Assembly (NCBI RefSeq): GCF_002201895.1
Contig: NZ_CP019436.1
Location: forward strand, 1,277,867-1,341,866
Length of the DNA: 64,000 nucleotides
Direction of reading: 5' to 3'
Source: Methanopyrus sp. SNP6
GTDB lineage: Archaea > JAADCQ01 > Methanopyri > Methanopyrales > Methanopyraceae
The position numbers and the translations under genes were made by a program. This document shows, piece after piece, positions 18,554-64,000 of this stretch. Positions within the stretch are counted from its first letter, which is position 1; every line of letters starts with the position of its first letter. Under the pieces are notes generated by a model that was not told where the DNA came from, did no database searches, and saw only the letters and a list, made by a program, of their open reading frames with translations.

Positions 18554-19834
18554 TCATATCTCTGCCACGAGTCGTGCGTGAGACGCACCCACGATACGAC
18601 ACTCCAACCGCTCGCCTGGTTCCGGAACTTCACCCCGAAACACCGTCTTCTTCGCGTGCTCGTCTCGTCCCCATCTCTCCATTACCATCGTCACCTCTAC
18701 GGTCTCTCCGATCAGCTCGCGGTTCGCCTCTTCAGCCCACTCGAGGCGCTTACTGTGAAGGATCCGGCTCCTCCGTAGCTTCACATCCTCCGGTACCTGA
18801 TCTTCAAACCGCGCCGCCTGGGTCCCTGGACGTCGGCAGAACCTGGAAGCGTGCAGGATATGCGGTCTGGTTCTCTCCAGGAACTCGAGGGTGTTACGGA
18901 AGGCCTCCTCAGTCTCCCCCGGGAACCCCACAATAACGTCCGTGATGAAGGAGAAGTACCCGAGTCGGCGCTCGAAGGCGCGGTACACCTCCAAGGCCTC
19001 TTCGACCGTATAGTTCCTGTTCATGCGACGCAACACTTCGTTGTCACCGCTCTGCACGGGCATGTGGATAGAGCGGTACAGCACGTCGTCTCGGCTCGCG
19101 AAGAGATCGGCGAGGTCGTCCGCGATAGGGTAAGCGTGACCGGGGTTGAACATACCCAGGCGAACCCGGGCTCCGTAGCGCGAGCAGAGATCGACCACGT
19201 CCTCCAGTAGATCGACGACGTTTGTCCCCCTGTCCAGTCCGTACGTCGCGGTGTCCTGTGCGGTGAGGTGAATCTCAACGGCCCCACGCTCTAGCTCCCG
19301 CCTCACACGCCTCAGAATGCGTTCCGGTGGAAAACTGCGGAGGTTCCCACGTGCGAGCTTCACGGCGCAGTACGCGCACTTATTCGGACAGCCTTCCGCG
19401 ATCGGCACGATGGCGGCGAGGTTAGGTAGCTCACGTGGAGCGTCGGCCTTCCAATCGAGGTCATCGCGTTCGCCCAGGAATTCCACTCGATCGCCGCGCA
19501 GTACGGCTCGAACGGCTTCCGGTACTCGGTCGAGGTGTCGAGGACCTACGAGGGCGGCGTCTGGGCGAAGCTTGCGGGCGCGCTCTGGGTAGGCTTCCGG
19601 GAAGCATCCGGCTACGACGGTCGGCACACGCTCCAGCTCACACATCCTATTCACCATTCTGGCGTCTACGCTGTCCCGAACGATGCAGGTCAGGAGGACG
19701 ACAACGTCCGCGTTCTCAGCGTCTTCGACAACCTCGAAACCTTCTCGGCGTAACAGCTCCCTCACCAATCTACCGTCGTCATGGTTGGCAGCACATCCGT
19801 ACACTTCGACGGTGACTCTAATCACCGTTATCAC
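18554..19834 (-). CDS. tRNA t6A37 methylthiotransferase, archaeal CDKAL1/MtaB type
   Basis: This radical SAM enzyme inserts a methylthio group into t6A at tRNA position 37. The N-terminal cluster cysteines are in YGCAAN, LLTCIV and VAGCFP; the radical SAM motif is CPNKCAYC near residue 150; and a C-terminal TRAM domain starts near residue 360. The arrangement and roughly 425-residue length match the archaeal family. GTG 19834 overlaps the PelG-like stop by four bases (GTGA); GTG 19825 is an alternative. It is the last gene of an overlapping three-gene unit whose first two genes handle polysaccharide, an unexpected pairing. Confidence 0.88.
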   Translation of the reverse strand: MITVIRVTVEVYGCAANHDDGRLVRELLRREGFEVVEDAENADVVVLLTCIVRDSVDARMVNRMCELERVPTVVAGCFPEAYPERARKLRPDAALVGPRHLDRVPEAVRAVLRGDRVEFLGERDDLDWKADAPRELPNLAAIVPIAEGCPNKCAYCAVKLARGNLRSFPPERILRRVRRELERGAVEIHLTAQDTATYGLDRGTNVVDLLEDVVDLCSRYGARVRLGMFNPGHAYPIADDLADLFASRDDVLYRSIHMPVQSGDNEVLRRMNRNYTVEEALEVYRAFERRLGYFSFITDVIVGFPGETEEAFRNTLEFLERTRPHILHASRFCRRPGTQAARFEDQVPEDVKLRRSRILHSKRLEWAEEANRELIGETVEVTMVMERWGRDEHAKKTVFRGEVPEPGERLECRIVGASHARLVAEI

Positions 19835-21336
19835 CCCCAGCGTCTAGGTATTTCCGTGACGTACGAAACGAACGCGTTGTAAGCCACTACCCGGTAAGCC
19901 TCCCTGCTGATCCTTCGGTATATCCTAATCGAGAAGATCAGGGAAAGCCCGGCTGCCAAAGTGGCTCCCGTCAGGTAGCTCATCGGGAGAAAACCTTCCC
20001 CGAAGTACTTCCATACTAGCAGTTCCGTAGCCGGTACTGCAGATGTTACGAGCAGTGCCTCGAAGTCCCTACGGAAGGTGAGGAGCTGCGGGTAAGTGTA
20101 GACGATGATAGCTCCCGGCAAACTCCCGATTAAATACGTCGTCAGGACACTCACGCTTGGGAAATTGACTTTTAAGAACAACGCGCCGGTGGCCGTGAGC
20201 AGTAACGGTATCGCGTACTTCCTAGGCAACTTCACCGCCCCGAGTCCCATGAAGAACGACAGGGCGCCGAGAACGGCCATCGAGATGTACCCTAGAGTCC
20301 GATGCGCGGAGATGCCGATCGCGAGCATGATCGAAGCCGTGATCAGGCCGGCGAGCACGAGCGTCCAGGTGAGGCCCCGCCAGTACGCCTTCATGACGAA
20401 CTCGCGGAGTGCGTACATCCCGTCCCAGTCCACGCGGTACAGGAGGTCTAGTTTCCCCTCCACGGAGTCCCAGAACCTGATCGCTGCCAGGGTACCGGCG
20501 AACAGTGGCATCATGCCGATGAACGACGGGGAGTCTAGCGGGAAGTACGGGAACCCGTACTTGGACCAAATCAAGAACTTGTCGAAGAACATCACCGAGT
20601 AATACGCGATTGCGGACATCATCATGAGCGAGTAGTCCGCGAACGCTGCAATGGCTATTTTTAGGCTTTTAGTCAGTAAGTTACTACGTGTGAATATGGA
20701 GATCCTAGAGACTCTACTCACGCCTTGTATGACATCTATAAAAGACAGTAACATTGTGAATACCAGTATAGCGGAGGCTATTAAATACGCCTGGTCCGCC
20801 TCTGTTATCATCAAAGAGACTATGAATGAAATCACGAAAAGGGTCCATGGTATTGCTACTCGACGAGCAATTAATTCCGGACGAGTCCAAGAAACGGCGG
20901 AATGGGCGGCCGTAAATATGTACGCTAATGCGGCCATAGGGGTCGCTATAGTGGCTGCTAGTGATATTTTTATGCTGAACAGCCGAGTTAGTTCGTCGTA
21001 AAGAACAATTGAACATACGGTACAAAGAATGGTCGATAATATCATGATTCCAGGTATGGGTATGAACGTTTCTAGAAACAGAGCGTCTAAAATCACGCGT
21101 GAAACAAGCACTTGAAAGGGGGCAGAAGTGAGAACAGCTGCGATTAGTGAAAGGCTTACTGGAGCTAGTTTCATCGATCCTAAAACTGTGAGTGTAGACA
21201 GCACGAAAATAACTCCGAGTACAGGGGAAGCTCCCAGGACGATTTTTATGAGCACAACTGAGTCACTGGTAGCTCCACCTATTGAGCGAATTATCGTTAC
21301 TAGTGTGTCAGATATTGCACCCAATTCAGTCACCAC
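19831..21336 (-). CDS. PelG-like polysaccharide flippase (MOP superfamily)
   Basis: A 501-residue protein with about 12 hydrophobic segments. Its position right after a PelF-type transferase, with overlapping reading frames, and segments such as AIAYYSVMFFDKFLIW and MPLFAGTLAAIRFWDSVEGK match PelG, the inner-membrane transporter of Pel exopolysaccharide. In Pel systems PelG passes the chain made by PelF across the membrane. It starts with two GTG codons at 21336 and 21333, overlapping the PelF-like stop. The first 700 bases or so are more AT-rich than the rest. The family call rests on topology, context and short motifs. Confidence 0.62.
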   Translation of the reverse strand: MVTELGAISDTLVTIIRSIGGATSDSVVLIKIVLGASPVLGVIFVLSTLTVLGSMKLAPVSLSLIAAVLTSAPFQVLVSRVILDALFLETFIPIPGIMILSTILCTVCSIVLYDELTRLFSIKISLAATIATPMAALAYIFTAAHSAVSWTRPELIARRVAIPWTLFVISFIVSLMITEADQAYLIASAILVFTMLLSFIDVIQGVSRVSRISIFTRSNLLTKSLKIAIAAFADYSLMMMSAIAYYSVMFFDKFLIWSKYGFPYFPLDSPSFIGMMPLFAGTLAAIRFWDSVEGKLDLLYRVDWDGMYALREFVMKAYWRGLTWTLVLAGLITASIMLAIGISAHRTLGYISMAVLGALSFFMGLGAVKLPRKYAIPLLLTATGALFLKVNFPSVSVLTTYLIGSLPGAIIVYTYPQLLTFRRDFEALLVTSAVPATELLVWKYFGEGFLPMSYLTGATLAAGLSLIFSIRIYRRISREAYRVVAYNAFVSYVTEIPRRWG

Positions 21337-22801
21337 CGGTGTATTTATAGTACTCCTGGAAGTAGTTATGACACATGCGCATTACATCGTACTGTTTGGC
21401 ACGTTCGACGGCATGATGAGCCATATCGAACATCAACTCGGGATCGTAGAGTAGGCGTACTAGGTGCTTAGCGGCTTCGTCTGCGTCCTCGGACCGGAAG
21501 GTGCGACCGAAGTTCCTGTCAACTATGTACGGCACTGCGCCGACCTCGGAGGCTACTACCGGGCACCCACAGCTCATCGCCTCGAGGAGTGCCATCGGTA
21601 GTCCTTCCAAGCGGCTCGGTAAGAGGAAGACGTGGAATCTACGAAGCCATTTGACTACTTCATCTGGGTTGCAGGGACCGTGGAACCTCACGATGTCTTC
21701 CAGGCCGTATTCCTTCACGAGTTTCCTGCACTTCTCATAGTACGCTTTGTCTTCCACTGGACCTATCACGTGGAACACTACGTTATCTATGTGCTCGACT
21801 GTGCGGGCCGCGATCTCGATGAGTACGTCGATGCCTTTAACACGTTCGATTCTCGTGATCGTACCGACTTCGAGTATCTCCGGTTCGCTGTATTTCCTCT
21901 CCAGGTCGCCTGGGTAATACTTCCAGGTCTCTATCCCCGAGTAAATGACTTTGATTTTATCTTCAGGGGCTCCCTGTTTCAGTGCCAGCTCCGCGTGGTA
22001 ATCCGAGATTTCTATTATCTCTTCGCACTGCTCATACGACGTGAACATCATCGAACGGAAGCATTCCTTGAAGAGCTCGCGTGCCGTCTTCCCGAACCCC
22101 TGCAGTCGCATGTCGAGCTCCCTAAGCAATATCCCGTGCTCGGTGATGATGAAGGGGACGCCTCGCACGGCCTTCGCCACCGAGCACAGGAATCCGCATA
22201 CTCCCGAGTTCTGTGCGTGCGCAACGTCACAGTTCGGTAGTCGTCTAGCGCCGGCAGCCGCTCCCAGCACGAAGGAAACTACGTTCACGGCTACCCAGAA
22301 CACGTCGCTGAACAGGTTATTCTCGCACTCGTCCTCGTACTGGGAAGCTAGGTAGTGAACGTATCGTGCGAGCTCGTACATTGTGGAGCTGGCGAGTACA
22401 TTCGTGGGTGACTTGGAAGCTTTCCATAGCTCCTTCAACATCGGCTCCGAAAGCGGTTCGCCCTCCACCATCCTTTCGAAGACGATCTGGAGTGTTTTCG
22501 ATACTGTAGACCACCTGAGGCAGTGTGCTGGCGTCATCCTATCGAGCCACCGGCGCAGCTTGTTCCCCTTAGGGACGATCTCCTGAATTACAACGTCCCG
22601 GACGTTCGCCGGAATTTCCACGACTGGTTCGGTCCTTCCCTGTCCCGTCATGCATAACACGTTGAACACAACGTCCGGTGAGTACTTGATGAGGCGATGG
22701 ACCCAGGTAGTGACCCCGCCTAAAGCTACGGGATATGTAGCTTCAGTTACCACGGTGACGGTGGGTCGTCTGTACGCCTCGATTCTTCGAAATCCCGTCA
22801 T
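21326..22801 (-). CDS. PelF-like family 4 glycosyltransferase
   Basis: PelF-type enzymes polymerise hexosamine from UDP-sugars in the cytoplasm. The N terminus has the hallmark TEATYPVALGGVTTWVHRLI (compare EGTYPYVxGGVSSWVHQLI in PelF). A long middle region precedes the GT4 part: HIITEHG-like ITEHGILLRE, VYSGIETWKY, GTITRIERVKGIDVLIE, and the nucleotide-sugar motif PSRLEGLPMALLEAMSCG. ATG 22801 gives 491 residues, close to PelF; longer in-frame starts add unrelated sequence. A second, closely similar gene begins at 63806. It overlaps the PelG-like gene, as in bacterial pel operons. Confidence 0.8.
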   Translation of the reverse strand: MTGFRRIEAYRRPTVTVVTEATYPVALGGVTTWVHRLIKYSPDVVFNVLCMTGQGRTEPVVEIPANVRDVVIQEIVPKGNKLRRWLDRMTPAHCLRWSTVSKTLQIVFERMVEGEPLSEPMLKELWKASKSPTNVLASSTMYELARYVHYLASQYEDECENNLFSDVFWVAVNVVSFVLGAAAGARRLPNCDVAHAQNSGVCGFLCSVAKAVRGVPFIITEHGILLRELDMRLQGFGKTARELFKECFRSMMFTSYEQCEEIIEISDYHAELALKQGAPEDKIKVIYSGIETWKYYPGDLERKYSEPEILEVGTITRIERVKGIDVLIEIAARTVEHIDNVVFHVIGPVEDKAYYEKCRKLVKEYGLEDIVRFHGPCNPDEVVKWLRRFHVFLLPSRLEGLPMALLEAMSCGCPVVASEVGAVPYIVDRNFGRTFRSEDADEAAKHLVRLLYDPELMFDMAHHAVERAKQYDVMRMCHNYFQEYYKYTGGD

Positions 22802-22953
22802 AGTGGTTGGCCCTGAAACTAGATACGCGCCTCTTCCGTTTCTTACTGTCACCTCATAGCCCCGGCAATATGAGTTACTCCATTCCGGCGCACTTATCGC
22901 CAGGTGAGGAAACACACCCAGTACTCTATTCTTTGACTGGTGGAGGCATGGGA

Positions 22954-24507
22954 CTATCTGGTTTCGACTACCGTTGTGTCGGGTGGAACGTCTTCGGGCC
23001 GGGCGATCACTCGACACGGTCGGATCTCGTCACCGAGGTCGACCGGCCAGTGGAACCCAGGGAGCACGTCTTCGGGGACGTCCACCACCTCGGCTTTCGT
23101 TCCCTCCTCGGCGTGGACCGGAGGTACCCGGGAGCTCACACACAGTTCGGCGCCCAACTGAGACAAGGTCAAGAGACCAGAAGTGGGGGGGACCGAAAAG
23201 GCCCTCTCCCCGTCGATGAGTACGCGCTGTCCGTCGAATCGGTAGTCCACGTCCTCCAACACGTCGACACCGTATTGAAACCTCGAAACGGCTCGGGGTA
23301 CGTGCTCACGGAGATCCCCGGGTTCACCCTCCGTGAGATCCTTTAGGGTCCGTCGGAGCTCCTCGAGCGCCCCTCTGGAGGCAGGGTTCCCCTCGGGACG
23401 GCACGTGTAAACGACGTCGTATCCTCTTTCTTCCAACTCTTCTCCAACTTTCCGGTAACCGTCCGAAGCGTGGCATACTATCGGGAGATCTTCCACTATC
23501 TTCTCAATAAGCGCCGCCGAGCGCTCGATCTCCTCCCGACTCCACTCCCCGGTGACTCGGACGTCATAGTGGGCAGCTGGAAACGTCCTCTCCAGCGTCC
23601 TCGGCACGGCACCTAGTGGGCTGGTGATAATTATCTCGTCCACGGGGAAATTCCACGTTATCCGAGTGATACGTCGGTGCGTGGGCGATCGTGAGTAGGG
23701 TTTCCGGGCGGAGCACGGGAGCAGAACGACTGCCTCCGCCCAATCCGGTGGTTCGTACCGACGGACGCGATGGAGCCACTCGGTGACCTCCGGACGATCG
23801 AACGATAGGTCGGTAGCGCAGGCGATCTGGGTGTTCCGGTTCAGGTTCACGTATCGGGCAATGACACGTTTCCGATCACAGAATCGCAGGACTTCGGCGA
23901 TCCTGGGGTGCCTCGCGGCCACGGACTCGACCAGTTCCCTCAAAGTGCCCTCACGGATCGCTTCGCGGAGTCTCAGCAGGCAGAACTGTAGCTGGGTCCA
24001 GTTTTCCCTGAGCAACTCTTCGCGGTCCTCCGTCTCCACGGTCTCGGTCGAGAAATCATCCAATAGCAACCGGTCCTCCAGCGTCAGACGTAGACACAGT
24101 GCGGCGTCGAAGAGGTCGAACCCGAGGTAGAATAGCACGGGTATCCATTCAGGATCCCGCACCGTCACGGCACGAACCGAGCCGCTCCGACGTATCTTGC
24201 TCACTACCTCCGCGAACTCCCGGGCATCTGGGATCGACTCGAGCCTGTACACCGTGATCGATCCGCCCGAAGGGGCTTCGGCAGGGTTCGTCCACGGGGA
24301 CGGCAGATCGACCGGCGTGAGTCGTACGGAGTACGGCCGTGCCAGTTCCTCGAGCTCCTTCACGAGTTCTCGCACTTCTGGGACATTCTCCACAGCGATG
24401 GACAGTCGTTCGGGGATGAAGAAGGGGGCCGGGGTTTCTACGCCCTTTACCTCGAGGACGCGCGCGCAATCACACCGAATTACCCTGACTTTATCCGGCA
24501 CCGACAC
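22954..24507 (-). CDS. arcS: Archaeosine synthase ArcS (TgtA2)
   Basis: ArcS adds the amidine nitrogen to preQ0 at position 15 of archaeal tRNA. The diagnostic motif PCSARKPYS-x-S-x-T-H lies near residue 270, where SH is usual at the end. An N-terminal TGT-like region lacks transglycosylase catalytic aspartates, as expected. A PUA RNA-binding domain fills the C-terminal end (about residues 425-517) and looks a little short. GTG 24507 overlaps the purB stop by 17 bases; GTG 24501 is the other choice. queC at 3249-3968 makes its precursor. Confidence 0.85.
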   Translation of the reverse strand: MSVPDKVRVIRCDCARVLEVKGVETPAPFFIPERLSIAVENVPEVRELVKELEELARPYSVRLTPVDLPSPWTNPAEAPSGGSITVYRLESIPDAREFAEVVSKIRRSGSVRAVTVRDPEWIPVLFYLGFDLFDAALCLRLTLEDRLLLDDFSTETVETEDREELLRENWTQLQFCLLRLREAIREGTLRELVESVAARHPRIAEVLRFCDRKRVIARYVNLNRNTQIACATDLSFDRPEVTEWLHRVRRYEPPDWAEAVVLLPCSARKPYSRSPTHRRITRITWNFPVDEIIITSPLGAVPRTLERTFPAAHYDVRVTGEWSREEIERSAALIEKIVEDLPIVCHASDGYRKVGEELEERGYDVVYTCRPEGNPASRGALEELRRTLKDLTEGEPGDLREHVPRAVSRFQYGVDVLEDVDYRFDGQRVLIDGERAFSVPPTSGLLTLSQLGAELCVSSRVPPVHAEEGTKAEVVDVPEDVLPGFHWPVDLGDEIRPCRVIARPEDVPPDTTVVETR

Positions 24508-25909
24508 TCAACACCTCCTTCATCTCGCGATCGATCTCTTCCAGGTCGCGTCGGGTCTTCTCAGCGGCCCCACGCGCCAGGTCGGGAGCCACTCCCAAGT
24601 ACTTCTCGGGGTTCAACACCTCTTCCAACTCCTCTCCCTCGAACAGCTCACGGATGCGCTCTTCCTCCTTAACTACTTCCGCGAAGTCGCGTCCTTCTTC
24701 CCAAGCCCTCATCGCGAGCCGTCTCACGAGCTCGTGCGCCTCCTGTCGCCCCATTCCTCGCTTAACCAGTTCGACCATCAGCGCCTCCGCCATGTTAAGC
24801 CCATTCGTCAGCCGAAGGTTCTCCCGTATGTTTTCCTCGTAAACGCGTAATCCCTCCAAGTTGTGGATCGTCAGCCGCAGCATTTCGTCCAACAGCAGGA
24901 ACTGTTCTGGGAGGATCACTCGCTCGCTCGCGGAGTTCGTGAGGTCCCGCTCGTGTTCGAGCGGCACGTTCTCGAGCGCTACCTGCACGTTCGACCGTAG
25001 TACCCTCGCCAGGCTACACACCCGCTCGGAACGGATTGGATTCCGCTTGTGTGGCATCGTCGAGGATCCGACCTGCTTCTTGGGATCGAACGGTTCCTCG
25101 ACTTCCCGGATCTCCGTCCGCTGGAGATTCCTGATCTCGCGGCCGATCTTATCCAGCGTCGAACCGATCAGCGCGAGTAATGCGATCAACTCCGCGTAGC
25201 GATCACGCTGAATGACCTGGTTGGATACTGTCACCGGCCTGAGGTTCAGCAATTCCATCACCCTACGCTGCACCTCGGGACCCTTCTCGCCCAGTGCCGC
25301 CATCGTTCCGACGGCGCCGGACAGCTGCCCCACCAGTACCCGGTCCGCGCACTCCCGGAGTCGCTTCAGGTGTCTCACGATCTCCCGTGCCCAGATCGCG
25401 AACTTCATACCGAGCGTCGTGGGGACCGCGTGCTGACCGTGCGTACGACCCACCATTGGGAGGTCGGCGTACTCTTCGGCCCGCTCCGCTAGCACTTCCG
25501 CCAGACGATGCAGCCTGCGGTAGATTATCGATAGTGCCTCCCTCAGTACCAACGCGTGCGCGGTGTCTATCACGTCGTTACTGGTAGCGCCCAGGTGCAC
25601 GTAGTCCCCTCCCACCTCGCACCGCTCCGAGAGCGCCTTCACTAGGGCCATCACGTCGTGTTTGATCTCCGCTTCGATCTCCTTGACGCGTTCCACGAAC
25701 CGTCGTAGCTCTCCCTCGTCGCCGGTGATCTCCTCGACGACGCGTTCCACCTCATCCGCTGCCTCCTTCGGTACGAAGTCGAACACCTCGGAGAGCGCCC
25801 GTACCAGGGCCGCCTCCACCTCGAGCATCTTCGCTACTTTGTTCTCCTCCGAGAACACCCGGCGGAGCTCGTCCGACCCGTACCGTGACTCGATCGGATG
25901 AACAGGCAA
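24491..25909 (-). CDS. purB: Adenylosuccinate lyase
   Basis: PurB removes fumarate from SAICAR and adenylosuccinate in purine synthesis. The fumarase-superfamily signature GSSTMPHKRNP is present near residue 290; YVHLGATSNDVIDTA and MVGRTHGQHAVPTTLG carry other active-site residues. Length is 472 residues. It begins MPVHPIESRYGS, as other archaeal PurB proteins do. The 3' end overlaps arcS by 17 bases, so the two are probably cotranscribed; the radical SAM gene upstream ends 93 bases before the start. Confidence 0.95.
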   Translation of the reverse strand: MPVHPIESRYGSDELRRVFSEENKVAKMLEVEAALVRALSEVFDFVPKEAADEVERVVEEITGDEGELRRFVERVKEIEAEIKHDVMALVKALSERCEVGGDYVHLGATSNDVIDTAHALVLREALSIIYRRLHRLAEVLAERAEEYADLPMVGRTHGQHAVPTTLGMKFAIWAREIVRHLKRLRECADRVLVGQLSGAVGTMAALGEKGPEVQRRVMELLNLRPVTVSNQVIQRDRYAELIALLALIGSTLDKIGREIRNLQRTEIREVEEPFDPKKQVGSSTMPHKRNPIRSERVCSLARVLRSNVQVALENVPLEHERDLTNSASERVILPEQFLLLDEMLRLTIHNLEGLRVYEENIRENLRLTNGLNMAEALMVELVKRGMGRQEAHELVRRLAMRAWEEGRDFAEVVKEEERIRELFEGEELEEVLNPEKYLGVAPDLARGAAEKTRRDLEEIDREMKEVLSVGAG

Positions 25910-40677: not shown

Positions 40678-41745
40678 GTGGGAGCGGCGTGTATAGGGGT
40701 CTCCGAAGTGCTCGGTACCGTACTCCTGGCTACTATCGCTTGGACGATCCAGGACCACGATCAACCCTTCGCCACGTACTGGCAGGAGGTGGATTTTTGG
40801 GAAATCCTGGAGCGACACCCGCGCACGCTTGTCGTCGATCCTTACTGCGGTCCCGAGGATAGACCTTGGACCGAGGATGAGCTCCGTGTCCTGCGAGAGC
40901 ATGGCGTGAAGCCCGTCGCGTACTTGTCGCTCGCCATGGTCGGTGAGCACCAGACGGACTTGTACCATCTCGCGGAGGAAAAGGGGCTCCTCGGTCCGTG
41001 GGACCCGTACTGGGAAGGTGACCGTGCGGTTCGGTTCTGGGAGCGTACTTGGCTCGACGTCCTCTGCACTAAGCTCGAAGAACTGCGACATCTAGGTTAT
41101 GAAGGGGTGTTCATCGACGTTGTGGATCCGTGGACTCTGGACTGGTACGTTAAGTGGTTCTGTCGCGAGACCGGTGAGGACGCGGAGAAACTGCGTGAGC
41201 TAACTTACGATGCACTCGAAGAACTCGTTCAGGTGGCACTACACCTCGGCCTCGAAGTCTACGTGAACGCCGGGGGCGCAATCTTCGACCTTGAACTCGC
41301 CGAGCTCAAGGAACGTTACGGGTTCAAGGTCGTCGTTGAGGACGTGATCACCGACGACGAAGGTAATCTCGTCCAGGACGACGTATTCCGTGATTACCTG
41401 CGCGCCCTCGCACACTTAGGCTCGGGTGCGTACGTGATCGAGTACGACCTGATGGTGACGCCCGAGGTGAACGAGCGGCTCGAAGAACTCTTCGCGGAGA
41501 CGGAAGTGGAGGCGGTGTACGTGACCTCTCTCGACCACGATCGACTCGGGATCGATATAGTCCCAGTCAAGGCCCCGGTGAACCCGTCGGACACCTCGAG
41601 GGAGGAGAAAGTGTCGTACACGCGGGAGAACGAGGAAGGCGTGGAGAAAACCACCATAGAGGAGCTCGTGGAAGAGGGTAAGAAGAGACTGCCGGTGATC
41701 CCGATAGTTCTATCGGCGCGTCGACGATGCCTATCACATGAGTAA
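40678..41745 (+). CDS. Secreted GH114-like glycoside hydrolase (TM1410/MJ1477 family)
   Basis: A TIM-barrel protein related to endo-alpha-1,4-polygalactosaminidases. The N terminus has a hydrophobic segment (VLGTVLLATIAW) that can act as a signal peptide or anchor. TLVVDPYCG, KPVAYLSLAMVGEH, PYWEGDRAVRFWERTWLDV and GYEGVFIDVVDPW match the family, the two acidic sites being LVVDP and FIDVVD. The last 60 residues are a charged tail. Related domains hydrolyse galactosamine polymers such as Pel, so a role in trimming a surface polysaccharide is plausible. GTG 40678 is the start chosen. The next frame starts in its stop (ATGAGTAA). Confidence 0.68.
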   Translation: MGAACIGVSEVLGTVLLATIAWTIQDHDQPFATYWQEVDFWEILERHPRTLVVDPYCGPEDRPWTEDELRVLREHGVKPVAYLSLAMVGEHQTDLYHLAEEKGLLGPWDPYWEGDRAVRFWERTWLDVLCTKLEELRHLGYEGVFIDVVDPWTLDWYVKWFCRETGEDAEKLRELTYDALEELVQVALHLGLEVYVNAGGAIFDLELAELKERYGFKVVVEDVITDDEGNLVQDDVFRDYLRALAHLGSGAYVIEYDLMVTPEVNERLEELFAETEVEAVYVTSLDHDRLGIDIVPVKAPVNPSDTSREEKVSYTRENEEGVEKTTIEELVEEGKKRLPVIPIVLSARRRCLSHE

Positions 41746-51136: not shown

Positions 51137-52561
51137 TCACTGATACCTTTCACTGAACCGTCTAAGCCTCAGACTACGTCTCAACCGGAGTGGGGAGGGC
51201 AGCACCGGCAGTCCGCGTTTCGACTCCCTCTTTTTCAGCCCCTGAAGCTCCCGTTCTAACGACTCGATCCGACGTTCCAGGTCTTGTTGTTTCTCGTTCA
51301 GCCGACCCACCATCTCGGCGTGAAGTGCTAGTATCTCCCGATAAACGGTGTCAAGAGATTTCCGCTCTTTGAGGAGGATCCAACGGGACGAGCTCGGGTC
51401 ACTGTACTTCAGATAGTCCTCGAGGAGTGCCTCGTCCCAAACCCACTTCACGGCACGGTATAGATCCTCCAGGATGGAATCATTGATGACACCGTTCACG
51501 GTGAGGTCCCAGAGGGCTGGGTCTAAAACCCACCACCGTGATACCGTATCCAGCCACTCCCACACGATCTCCGACCTATCCGGGTACAGATCGACGAGTT
51601 CCCACCAATGATGGTGGCTGGTCGCGTGCAAGATGCTGGAGTAATCGGGCTCCGGAAGTGCGACGAGTTCAATGTTGGTGCCCTTCTGGATAGCGTCGAC
51701 CACCTCGCGAGGGTCGCTGAGTTCGAACGTTACCGCGATACCTTGGTATTCGAAGTTGAAGGATCCACTTCCGACCTCCGAGAGGAAGTTCTCGAACTCA
51801 CTGCGGACGTTGGCGTCCGCGAGCTCCCAGGGATGTACGAGTATCCATAGGACCAGATGCACGTCGCCGGCAGTACTTATGGCACCGCCGTCGATGAGAT
51901 TTCTAACTGCGTTCTGGAGGAGCTCTCGAACTGTCGTCCCGCGATCCTCCGCCCCTTGCACCAGGTCCGATACGTAGCTCAAGGCGGGTACGTAGTATAT
52001 CTTATCCCCACAAACGTTGAAGTACCCTACCAGCATGTGTCTGGCTATAGGATCCAGTCGATCCCATGTTGGATCGTGATCGGGATTGATCGCCGTGATA
52101 TCAACGCCACAAACCATCACCCGTATCTCGAGCTTATGGCAGGCGTACAGGGTGTTGGCGTCGAATGTCCACGAAGGGACCGATAGAACTTGAGAGACGT
52201 TGCTTCCCACTCGGTTCCTGAGGAATCGTAGGTTGAACTCTAGTTCCCAGTATTGAAGGCTGAGCGGGAGACCTCCTAGGGCGTGAGATGTTGAGTGTAA
52301 TCCGACCAGGCTGATCGTACCCCGCCCGGCGTACTCCCGGATCAAATCCGTGATACCCGGCGCCGCATCCTCACAGACGTTGTAGTGGAACACCGCGACT
52401 TTGATGCCTCTCCCCTCGCACCACGAGAGGAACTCTTTCAGTGCGGTGACATGGTCTTTGGACCACGCATCACTGTCGATGTAGGGAACTACGTGCACGT
52501 ATACCGTAGCGGTGGAGGGCGACAGCATACTGCCGATGATGAACACCAACGATGGGAGCAT
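51137..52561 (-). CDS. Secreted NodB-like polysaccharide deacetylase family protein with C-terminal coiled coil
   Basis: ATG 52561 begins a signal peptide (MLPSLVFIIGSMLSPSTATV) with GGGG seven bases upstream. The NodB-type barrel follows: PYIDSDAWSKD is the metal-aspartate strand (D-x-D), GLHSTSHALGGLP holds H-x-x-x-H, and VPSWTFDANTLYACHKLEI is the later R/P-x-x-x-Y region. HPWEL recurs in its paralogue. From about residue 410 a coiled coil (LNEKQQDLERRIESLERELQ) ends in a basic, arginine-rich tail that could bind acidic cell-wall polymer. Length 474. A damaged AT-rich relative is at 53810-56123. Deacetylase activity is inferred. Confidence 0.62.
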   Translation of the reverse strand: MLPSLVFIIGSMLSPSTATVYVHVVPYIDSDAWSKDHVTALKEFLSWCEGRGIKVAVFHYNVCEDAAPGITDLIREYAGRGTISLVGLHSTSHALGGLPLSLQYWELEFNLRFLRNRVGSNVSQVLSVPSWTFDANTLYACHKLEIRVMVCGVDITAINPDHDPTWDRLDPIARHMLVGYFNVCGDKIYYVPALSYVSDLVQGAEDRGTTVRELLQNAVRNLIDGGAISTAGDVHLVLWILVHPWELADANVRSEFENFLSEVGSGSFNFEYQGIAVTFELSDPREVVDAIQKGTNIELVALPEPDYSSILHATSHHHWWELVDLYPDRSEIVWEWLDTVSRWWVLDPALWDLTVNGVINDSILEDLYRAVKWVWDEALLEDYLKYSDPSSSRWILLKERKSLDTVYREILALHAEMVGRLNEKQQDLERRIESLERELQGLKKRESKRGLPVLPSPLRLRRSLRLRRFSERYQ

Positions 52562-52758
52562 CGCCGGGCCCCGGTACATACCCGAAGGACCCAGGGTTAA
52601 CACGTGTTGTCTGAAGTCATGCAAATCTTCTTCATGGATTATCAAGCTTCGTAGATGCTCCCGCAGATGGCGTAACTCACTGAGTTCGAAAAGTACGGAG
52701 AAGGAGGAGTTGAGAAGTTGCTGCGACTCATCGTGTGACGGAAGAACCATGCGAGGCC

Positions 52759-53334
52759 TCATCTGTACCTGTGTACCTCACGATCCCAATCGTGTGCCGC
52801 CCAATAGGTGTATTCGTAATAAGTCCCTCCCTCGGTCCAACGTACGCTCACGATGGACTTCCGAGCTGTCTCGAAGGAGATTCCTAGGACGAACGGGCCA
52901 CTGTATCGGTGGATCCGAACGCGTTCACCCAGGAGCGCGTGCGCACCTTCGGATAGGGGACCGCCCTCCAAGAACGTGGAGTCCTCGGTCACGGGAACTC
53001 CGTCTTCACTGGGTACTAGTAGAAGTACTTCCGCGAACTTAGGGCACTGAACGTGGAGGTACCCATCATTCCACCGGATCCGAACACCTGTGAACCATCG
53101 AGAAAGTCCGGATTGGACATCGGTTTCTCCCATCGTCTCCCTCCAACTGTCACCCTTCCGCACGAACACTGCTCCCTCATCCAGTTCAGGTGTGGTTAAG
53201 AATGCCCTAGTGACGTTCCACTGGACAACGACTCCCGTGTGGCCTGACGTCAGACACATTGGGCCGTCGTCGACGAATCCTGCCACGATGATCGTGGAAA
53301 GTACAATCAGGAGGAGTCCAAGTAATTCGTTCAA
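52759..53334 (-). CDS. Membrane-anchored extracellular beta-rich protein
   Basis: TTG 53334 has AGGAGGG seven bases upstream and gives a 191-residue protein. The start NELLGLLLIVLSTIIVAGF is a signal peptide or anchor; the rest is beta-strand-rich (GVVVQWNVTRAFLTTPEL, FVLGISFETARKSIVSVRW) and probably outside the cell. Its stop lies about 200 bases before the NodB-like start, in the same direction, so they may form one envelope unit. No family recognised. Confidence 0.55.
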   Translation of the reverse strand: MNELLGLLLIVLSTIIVAGFVDDGPMCLTSGHTGVVVQWNVTRAFLTTPELDEGAVFVRKGDSWRETMGETDVQSGLSRWFTGVRIRWNDGYLHVQCPKFAEVLLLVPSEDGVPVTEDSTFLEGGPLSEGAHALLGERVRIHRYSGPFVLGISFETARKSIVSVRWTEGGTYYEYTYWAAHDWDREVHRYR

Positions 53335-53809: not shown

Positions 53810-56123
53810 TTAGTAGTTTCTCCCCCACTCATTAACAGTTACATTAGATTTGTGTATATGCCCCTGGTTACCTCCGTAGGGTTTCTGTTTAGCAGTAACA
53901 GTGTTACGGACGTAGCTAGTTCTAGACTCACGCCTCTCCTCCTTAGCGGGGGGCGAACTAGCCCGCTGCATTACAACCGTAACATCTGCCTTAGTAGTGG
54001 CTTTAAACCGTATTTTCGTGCTAGTATCTAAGCAGTATGCCACCATAATAATCCTATACTTACCACCCTTACCTATGCAAAATCTAACTGATCCCACCGG
54101 TTGGACGTCTTTATTCTGAACTATTTTCTCGACGACTTTGTCACTTTTATCTCGTAGTTCTATTTCAATGCTTTCTATCTTCACATTACTGGTACCAATG
54201 TTATAATTAACTATCAGCGTTGCCCTTCCTCCGGATTCAAACCGCACGTCTACACTTATCTTAGGTGCAGTCAGGAATAACGTGCCGGTCTTTTTAGTCA
54301 ATTTACCACTAACATTCGCTTTAGGTACCGGAATGGGAATATCTAAGATCATCTTCCCTTGACCTTGCACTTTCGCCTCTAATATGAATCGTACAAAGCT
54401 AGCCTGTTTATCACTCCCGAGTCTAATTGTGATGCCACTTTTGAGATTATTTAATTTAGAATGAACTTCTGTAATAGTATTCCCGTTTTCGTCATCAACA
54501 GCAATGTCGACTTTATCGGTTATTATATTTAACCCTACTGGAACTATTTCACCTTTAACTACAAGATCTGTGTGGTTTTTACACTCAAGTATTACTTTCC
54601 CACGTACTATTCCTATGAACGGACGCCACCAGTTTTTGTTCAAGAATACTGCGCTTACCTCACCGCACGAGCATCTAAACATTACTATAGTTTTGTATTG
54701 CTCATTTTGTTTAACAAGGATAGGATGAGCTTGTCCATATAGGTAATCGTATAACAACTCTATTTTATTCATCCAGGCTGTCAGAAATGATTCAACTACA
54801 TTCTTATTATTACTCATTATTTTCACAATCTGTAACTTGTTAAGCGAGCTAAGTAATGTATCTCTAACCAGTAGTTTCACGTTTTCATCTGTAACTTTTT
54901 GCAACCTCGAGCTTACTAAGCTTAAAAGATTTAGGCACTTTTCCCATAGTTTTTCAACGTCACTGTCGTCAATTTTAACATCTTCATATGTTGAAATTTT
55001 TTCCATATCTGTCACTTCTATTTTAATATCAAAAACCGGTTCGTAGGTAGGCTTGTCTCCTACAGTTTCGCGTATTTTCTTATGGTTTATTATTATTTCA
55101 TTTATTAACTCTATACACCTAGACGGCGTGTTAAGTTCAAAATGTACTAACATGTTGTCTAAAATGAAATCAAGTTCTTTATTGTTAATCCATTCAATAA
55201 ATTCTTTAAGTAAGTCTACAACTTTCTTGTCTGTGTTACTTACTTCCTCAACAAGCTGCCACGGGTGGACTAGTATAAATATAACCAGTGTTCCGTACCC
55301 ATAAATGAATCCGTCATCAAGTAGTTCTTTAATTGCTTTTTTGAATTCACTTCTCGTAACATCTTTTAGAGTCTCGTTATTTTGGACTTTATTTGCTAAA
55401 TTTTCGATCAAATCCTTGAAGTCTATTGTTGGGCAAACAACGCAAACATTTTGGCCGTTAATTGTTATTAGTCTCTTAATAACTAGTGCGTCCGCTAGCC
55501 AACCGATGTCCTTGCTCTTCCACGGTGGTAGTCCTTGTCCCTGTTGTCCTTTCGGTTGTAAGTCCCAACTCCGACACCCAGAAATTATCCAGACTCCGTA
55601 CATTCGGCAAAATTTTATCAGATTACCATCGATAGCCCATCTCACCTTCTTATTATTCTTGTTGTCCTCATTTATCCACTCCTCTATCGGTAGAACTACA
55701 TTGTCCAAGTACGGCTTCAGACCTTGTTCCTCGAAAAGCTCGTATGAATAATCAGTTTTCAATTTTATTACATTTAGAGGTAAACCGGCTATTCCGTGAG
55801 TTCCAACGAAATCAATGGATTTCCCGAGGTGTTTCTTTATCACGCATAAGATCTTCATTCGAGCCTAGTAGTGATCTTTCTAAGTCACGTTCCGGGGAGT
55901 AAAAGACGGCTACTTTCACACCATTTTCCTCACACCAGCTTAGGAAGTCATCGTAGGCTTGGATTTGGTTCTTGTCGTATGCGTCGCTGTCAATACATAA
56001 CGCCACGTTCACACATAGAGACTGAGTTGGCTGCGGTGTAATTAAATTTAAGAACGTTAAAAGAACAGTAGCGGTGGCAATGCGTTGACTCACTCGAAAC
56101 CTGCTAATTATGTAAGTTTCCAT
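53810..56123 (-). pseudogene. AT-rich NodB-like secreted protein broken by a frameshift
   Basis: The 5' part (ATG 56123) has a signal peptide (VLLTFLNLITPQPTQS), then NVALCIDSDAYDKNQIQAYD and DFLSWCEENGVKVAVFY, matching residues 20-60 of the protein at 51137-52561. It stops at 55812. The rest continues in another frame from about 55825 (IDFVGTHGIAGLPL...HPWQL) for some 670 residues to 53810. The shift is at about 55815-55825. The second metal motif is H-x-x-x-G rather than H-x-x-x-H, so it was probably inactive as a deacetylase. The C-terminal half is strand-rich (Ig- or CARDB-like), unlike the coiled-coil end of the paralogue. The DNA is much more AT-rich than the genome. Confidence 0.65.
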
Positions 56124-63805: not shown

Positions 63806-64000
63806 ATGTTGGGCAAGCCTGAGGTCACCATTGTAACGGAGGGAACGTATCCCATCACTCTCGGCGGGGTCACCACCTGGGTACAGCGTCTCATCGAGCA
63901 CTCCTCAAACGTCAGGTTCAACGTGCTCTGTCTGGCGCCCTCAGGGAAGGCGGAACCTGTCGTTGATATCCCGGAGAACGTCCGGGACGTGGTCGTTCGA
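63806..64000 (+). CDS. Second PelF-like glycosyltransferase, cut off by the window end
   Basis: Only the first 65 residues are present. VTIVTEGTYPITLGGVTTWV, then RLIEHSSNVRFNVLCLAPSG and EPVVDIPENVRDVVVR, is nearly the same as the start of the PelF-like protein at 21326-22801 (TEATYPVALGGVTTWVHRLI, VVFNVLCMTGQG, VEIPANVRDVV). ATG 63806 has GGGG three bases upstream; TTG 63809 has better spacing. A paralogous polysaccharide transferase is certain; its partner genes lie beyond the window. Confidence 0.82.
   Translation, partial: MLGKPEVTIVTEGTYPITLGGVTTWVQRLIEHSSNVRFNVLCLAPSGKAEPVVDIPENVRDVVVR

Follow-up and report, generated by a model that had tools for sequence, protein, structure and literature searches.

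Does the archaeon Methanopyrus carry the core of a Pel-type exopolysaccharide system, and what might such a core make? The question is raised by two overlapping genes in a 64,000-nt stretch of DNA (the window; G000:C1:1277867-1341866) from a 1.42-Mb single-contig Methanopyrus genome, which the original prediction had read as a PelF-like GT4 transferase and a PelG-like 12-helix flippase, the core pair of Pel synthesis, within a Pel-like pathway scattered over the window.

The transferase and its membrane partner

The pelF gene occupies 21326..22801 on the minus strand; its start is the ATG at 22801 (the open frame reaches 23017), and its end at 21326 lies within an 11-bp overlap with the gene for the membrane partner. 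The pelF product, a predicted polymerase, matches PF11997 (DUF3492) over profile positions 2-268 of 268 with 240.5 bits (E 3.6e-71), PF00534 (Glycos_transf_1) with an E value of 1.1e-31, and the NCBIfam PelF model NF038011 over positions 2-487 of 489 with 152.7 bits against a cut-off of 100. The other GT4 equivalogs that NCBIfam lists for this protein all fall far under their own cut-offs, and these family scores place the PelF identity far beyond chance. The EHG motif, R323/K328 and E405/E413 (E-x7-E) are kept in the 15 archaeal and bacterial PelFs that were aligned. In comparison with PelF of the Pseudomonas aeruginosa and Bacillus cereus type, the Methanopyrus protein has the full domain architecture, the catalytic motifs, the family score and a PelG-like gene next to it, but it is only 23-28% identical to the aligned bacterial PelFs and lies on a separate archaeal branch with the PelF of a presumed Methanocaldococcus (100/99).

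That branch comes from a maximum likelihood (ML) tree of 56 proteins, in which 30 bacterial and archaeal PelFs are split by a 100/100 branch from 26 other GT4s (16 of them archaeal). Contigs scanned with a Methanopyrus PelF alignment had given mostly unrelated GT4s, and these were reused as the tree outgroup and in the transmembrane (TM) controls. The pelF product thus groups with PelF and not with unrelated archaeal transferases, a placement that we reject, and by domain content, family score and phylogeny the predicted transferase is confirmed as a PelF-family GT4 glycosyltransferase.

The partner gene (19831..21336, minus strand) encodes a 501-aa polytopic protein of the MOP-flippase type, a predicted polymer exporter. 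The overlap with pelF and the PelG homology of the predicted 12-helix flippase both hold up, but the number of predicted TM segments is 10-12, varying with the threshold. The window protein has no match in Pfam or NCBIfam, and the PelG-like protein misses the PF16933 cut-off of 29 bits in every Methanopyrus genome (the two copies of M. kandleri AV19 score 14.5 and 10.9 bits). We therefore aligned the Methanopyrus family by hhalign with a PelG profile of 20 sequences, comprising canonical bacterial PelGs, an archaeal PelG that passes the Pfam threshold (G035), Nitrososphaeria proteins and L029; the PelG-like set was gathered beside PelF genes in plasmid records and archaeal genomes. The match was 94.2% (E 1.1e-7) over 385 colinear columns. 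A shallow comparison of 5 Methanopyrus with 5 bacterial PelG sequences gave only 0.6%, so that the 20-sequence profile was needed. The reversed Methanopyrus profile gave 0.3% against PelG, 10 other sets of TM proteins gave <1% each against the Methanopyrus profile, and 30 block-shuffled controls scored at most 54.2 against the true 68.7; the best of these shuffles still reached 83%, and part of the PelG profile score is thus due to a local motif.

In the window protein this motif reads YYSVMFFDKFLIW. It aligns as YY..MFFDKFLIW in Methanopyrus, YNLG.WVDK..FW in canonical PelG, YFATLWADRFFVWF in G035 and FY...FADRILSW in Nitrososphaeria, and of 93 TM proteins used as controls only 1 carries the underlying D[KR]xx(x)W pattern, which is missing also from 2 of 5 canonical bacterial PelGs. 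To set the product of 19831-21336 against lipid II and O-antigen flippases, the Methanopyrus profile was also compared with 19 Wzx-type flippases (0.1-0.4%) and E. coli MurJ (0.1%); PelG is much the closer, and a Wzx or MurJ identity is rejected. An AlphaFold2 (AF2) model of the protein is of low confidence (pLDDT 48, pTM 0.52) and is only supporting: its top 45 PDB matches are all MOP-superfamily proteins, MATE, WzxE and MurJ structures being matched about equally, and the PDB yielded no PelG structure against which to compare it. The partner is polytopic and MOP-type, stands beside PelF, matches the PelG profile colinearly and has the common motif, but its Methanopyrus copies lie under the Pfam cut-off; on these sequence comparisons it is a distant PelG homolog, which we file as PelG-like and outside PF16933 membership.

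Locus context, conservation and a second pair

The pair is wedged, within 18554-25909, between DUF5591/purB genes and a radical-SAM methylthiotransferase gene. The latter (mtaB, 18554..19834, minus strand; UPF0004 and Radical_SAM domains) overlaps pelG by 4 bp and is kept in the 4 genomes whose contig continues past pelG. The DUF5591 gene (22954..24507, minus strand; PF17884, 153 bits) lies directly upstream of pelF and is its neighbor in 5 genomes, and a conserved purB-like adenylosuccinate lyase gene (24491..25909, minus strand; PF00206 and PF10397) follows upstream on the same strand. AV19, G004 and G003 share the block rSAM-purB-DUF5591-pelF-pelG-mtaB, and G002 shares it as far as pelF. 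These are housekeeping neighbors and not a pel operon.

PelF is present in all five Methanopyrus genomes examined. A PelG-like partner adjoins pelF at 6 of 6 complete loci (in four genomes), and the family is found in 4 of 5 genomes, the contig of the fifth (G002) ending inside pelF. No relative of the PelG-like protein was found with the Methanopyrus profile in the other sampled archaea among 297 archaeal genomes scanned. When the window genome is compared with G002-G004, identity is 48-55% for pelF and 32-33% for pelG, whereas for purB and mtaB it is mostly 76-86%. The pair thus diverges far faster than its flanks, through either fast evolution or replacement in place.

Two PelF-PelG pairs are present in M. 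kandleri AV19 and likewise in the window genome; pelF and pelG were duplicated together as a whole pair. The second PelF-like gene that had been predicted at 63806 starts exactly there (pelF2, 5' part at 63806..64000, plus strand; PF11997, 218.9 bits) and runs past the window end. Just beyond that end (L003:5690-5715) it lacks 1 nt that AV19 has, and the frame is shifted; the lost base lies in a run rich in G. The shift could be a sequencing error, or pelF2 could be a pseudogene. It is followed by its own pelG2 (G000:C1:1343150-1344661, beyond the window), which scores 17.8 bits against PF16933 (cut-off 29). We also note that in AV19 pelG2 is directly followed by a gene (L012:5374-6600) for a membrane protein of 408 aa whose tail is rich in Gly; at the corresponding place in the window genome no similarly long ORF is called.

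Other Pel components and PelF in other archaea

PelA combines a GH166 hydrolase with a deacetylase, PelD is a c-di-GMP receptor, and a complete Pel system yields a GalNAc polymer that is partly deacetylated. Unlike the pel operons of the P. aeruginosa and B. cereus type, the Methanopyrus pair is without adjacent pelD, pelE, pelA, pelB or pelC. Within the locus no PelD or PelE stands beside the pair, as had been predicted, the neighbors there being DUF5591, purB and the radical-SAM methylthiotransferase; nor do pelA, pelB or pelC adjoin it.

The same prediction saw a split PelA in the window, with a GH114-like secreted hydrolase and secreted NodB-type proteins. The hydrolase candidate (40678..41745, plus strand) does have an N-terminal hydrophobic stretch and a GH114 match, but the match is weak and partial, with 30.2 bits against PF03537 (cut-off 27) over less than half of the profile; TIGR01370 is matched at E 1.9e-10. 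It is a possible polymer hydrolase. The window genome has two GH114-profile matches (30 and 48 bits), the second outside the window and both unlinked to pelFG, and GH114 proteins occur in 5 of 5 Methanopyrus genomes. The original prediction related this family to the PelA hydrolase, which would be the likeness to PelA; the differences are that the match at 40678 is weak, partial and unlinked, and that no NodB domain (PF01522) was found. Indeed, PF01522 has no match anywhere in the window genome at E<=10, and the deacetylase half of the proposed split PelA is missing by this measure.

The two proteins put forward as NodB-type (51137 and 53810) fall into no significant Pfam or NCBIfam family, and their NodB nature is unsupported; BLASTP shows a distant relationship between the two (E 4e-10), and both contain an ILVHPW string. 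HSTSH and HPWE strings in the 51137-52762 protein are vaguely reminiscent of NodB, and Foldseek with its AF2 model, whose confidence is low (pLDDT 51), gave no convincing deacetylase-fold match. For the 53810-55858 protein, which as annotated shows no clear signal peptide, we reject a placement as a secreted deacetylase. The scattered pathway was an overreach, since the GH114 gene lies 19 kb from pelFG without an operon link, and the suggested tie to the pseudomurein surface is unsupported.

PelF itself is found more widely. Among the 297 sampled archaeal genomes, nine pass the PelF cut-off, the five Methanopyrus genomes plus G013, G035, G066 and G219, and targeted DUF3492 searches added to these: the G219 class has 17 genomes with substantial matches out of 300 (at E<=0.001 there are 20, of which three match weakly and partially), the G066 class has matches in 2 of 36 genomes, one of them weak, and the phylum of G013 has two strong and two weak matches among 196. 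We presume the hosts beyond Methanopyrus to be Methanocaldococcus, Odinarchaea and Nitrososphaeria (ammonia oxidizers, the class of G219). The presumed Nitrososphaeria loci examined have a recurrent order of ~205-aa protein, PelF, GalE-like epimerase and PelG-like protein, with glmS nearby and secreted Spherulin4-type proteins in many of them; examples are L166:4364-10990, L139, L168-L176 and L178. Their PelG-like profile matches bacterial plus G035 PelG at 97.6% (E 2.8e-12), and the PelG of G035 itself exceeds the Pfam cut-off. Like the Methanopyrus pair, this is an archaeal PelF with a PelG-like protein and no PelD; unlike it, it is a clear operon with an epimerase, a nearby glmS and a secreted Spherulin4, and its PelF joins that of Deinococcus, Thermus and Kocuria (100/97 in the ML tree). 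It is a much clearer archaeal cluster of the Pel or galactosaminan type than the Methanopyrus one, and the two separate branches, with Deinococcus and with Methanocaldococcus respectively, indicate that archaeal PelF is not one recent clade.

The Deinococcus, Thermus and Kocuria pairs (plasmid loci L016, L019, L023 and L025) resemble that of Methanopyrus in having a PelF with a divergent membrane partner annotated as hypothetical and no PelD or PelE annotated alongside, but this partner has no detectable match to the Methanopyrus one and the PelF branch differs. A polygalactosaminidase-type gene lies near the Thermus and Kocuria loci.

Two further arrangements were seen. Near the second PelF of the presumed Odinarchaea, a 1297-aa protein without a Pfam match (L137:9170-13063, L138:3361-7254) resembles a deacetylase in its N-terminal part (TVDQDWC, HDLASHSVTHVYW) and continues with 13-14 TM segments, and from its sequence it is possibly a fusion of a PelA-like deacetylase with a PelG-like exporter. 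A 373-aa polytopic protein (L140:9378-10499) overlaps the presumed Methanocaldococcus pelF upstream; PelG similarity is not detectable in it, and by position and topology it may be a third, previously unrecognized kind of PelF partner.

Possible product of the pair and alternative readings

We consider that the pair is probably a minimal PelF-PelG synthase-exporter, without PelD or PelE, that makes a surface hexosamine polymer. For catalysis, substrate, polymer, export, regulation and function we infer the following. PelF, a soluble GT4, would act at the inner membrane face and polymerize a UDP-amino sugar, with UDP-GalNAc or UDP-GlcNAc as the likeliest substrate, and the PelG-like MOP-fold protein would export the growing chain across the membrane. 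The product would be an extracellular or wall-associated hexosamine homopolymer, plausibly serving in adhesion or biofilm or as outer-envelope material, and it might be trimmed by a GH114-type hydrolase encoded elsewhere. With no adjacent PelD or PelE and a housekeeping block around the pair, expression is probably constitutive and not gated by c-di-GMP. A supply of substrate is plausible, since GlmS, GlmM and GlmU are present in M. kandleri together with a single 4-epimerase from the acetylated-UDP-hexose group, and the pseudomurein sugar is hypothesized to have UDP-GalNAc as its precursor (PMC12820599). Such a polymer could find a natural use in the two-species biofilm that M. kandleri is reported to form with Pyrococcus furiosus, as mentioned in a passage of PMC4086402 that cites Schopf 2008.

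Several observations count against a working minimal pair. Biofilm formation in Bacillus cereus requires all of pelD, pelE, pelA-DA, pelF and pelG (PMC7112168), and PelD, PelE and PelA-DA were not found here (PelD and PelE as neighbors of the pair). In addition, PF01522 gives no NodB deacetylase, the PelG-like protein stays under the Pfam cut-off, one block shuffle reached 83%, and pelF2 is frameshifted. In its favor are the PelF family scores and tree, the PelG homology of the partner, the pairing at all six complete loci with joint duplication, and the PelF genes of Deinococcus, Thermus, Kocuria and presumed Nitrososphaeria, which also have a partner and no annotated PelD or PelE.

A different reading keeps the homology to PelF and PelG and changes the sugar specificity, so that the pair would make an envelope glycan other than a Pel-type galactosaminan, for example one attached to or interleaved with pseudomurein or the outer layer of the wall. 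The low identity to bacterial PelF, the sub-threshold PelG-like score, the housekeeping surroundings and the lack of a PF01522 deacetylase all point this way, as does the two-layered wall of M. kandleri, which contains pseudomurein (PMC4243693). The DUF3492 domain and the GT4 catalytic residues are nevertheless fully retained, which counts against such a change. In addition, the nearest archaeal PelF belongs to the presumed Methanocaldococcus, a genus that to our knowledge has no pseudomurein, and the system is thus not tied to that wall. On balance we regard a changed glycan as unlikely.

Loss of function, in which a decaying or fast-diversifying accessory locus is kept but is no longer a functional Pel system, would fit the frameshift in pelF2 and the pace at which pelF and pelG outrun their flanking genes (pelG 33% against mtaB 80-82% identity between the same species). 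The pelF frame at the locus is intact and its catalytic residues are conserved in the genomes examined, however, and the one-base shift in a G-rich tract may be a sequencing error, so that we hold decay to be very improbable. A superficial likeness to Pel, with nothing more than a common lipid-linked-oligosaccharide flippase of the Wzx/MurJ type beside an unrelated GT4, is scarcely credible: the low-confidence AF2 model fits MATE, WzxE and MurJ about equally and the PDB offered no PelG structure, but the GT4 is PelF by family cut-off and tree, and the membrane protein reaches a probability of 94% with PelG against <1% with Wzx/MurJ and has the D[KR]xx(x)W motif in common with PelG.

Returning to the minimal synthase-exporter, a broader proposition may be put forward tentatively, with rather less assurance: that PelF-PelG without PelD or PelE is an established archaeal trait of several origins (Methanopyrus/Methanocaldococcus, Odinarchaea and ammonia oxidizers), and that Pel-type or galactosaminan-like polymers are a real part of the matrix in these archaea. 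A text search of the literature, mostly of papers outside subscription, found no paper placing PelF or PelG in archaea, and the Pel surveys PMC7112194 and PMC7112168 cover bacteria only, with no mention of archaea; the NCBI PelF model would label these archaeal genes automatically, which limits any claim that they are unreported. Pel-type surface-sugar machinery may reach beyond bacteria. Most archaeal biofilm matrices are chemically uncharacterized; to ask what archaeal surface polymers consist of, the PelF-PelG pair gives named genes, to which an existing Pel test kit can be brought (Wisteria floribunda lectin, anti-Pel antibody, and the PelA and Sph3 hydrolases). Together, the Methanopyrus pair and the ammonia-oxidizer operon let one ask whether PelF-PelG works without a c-di-GMP receptor.
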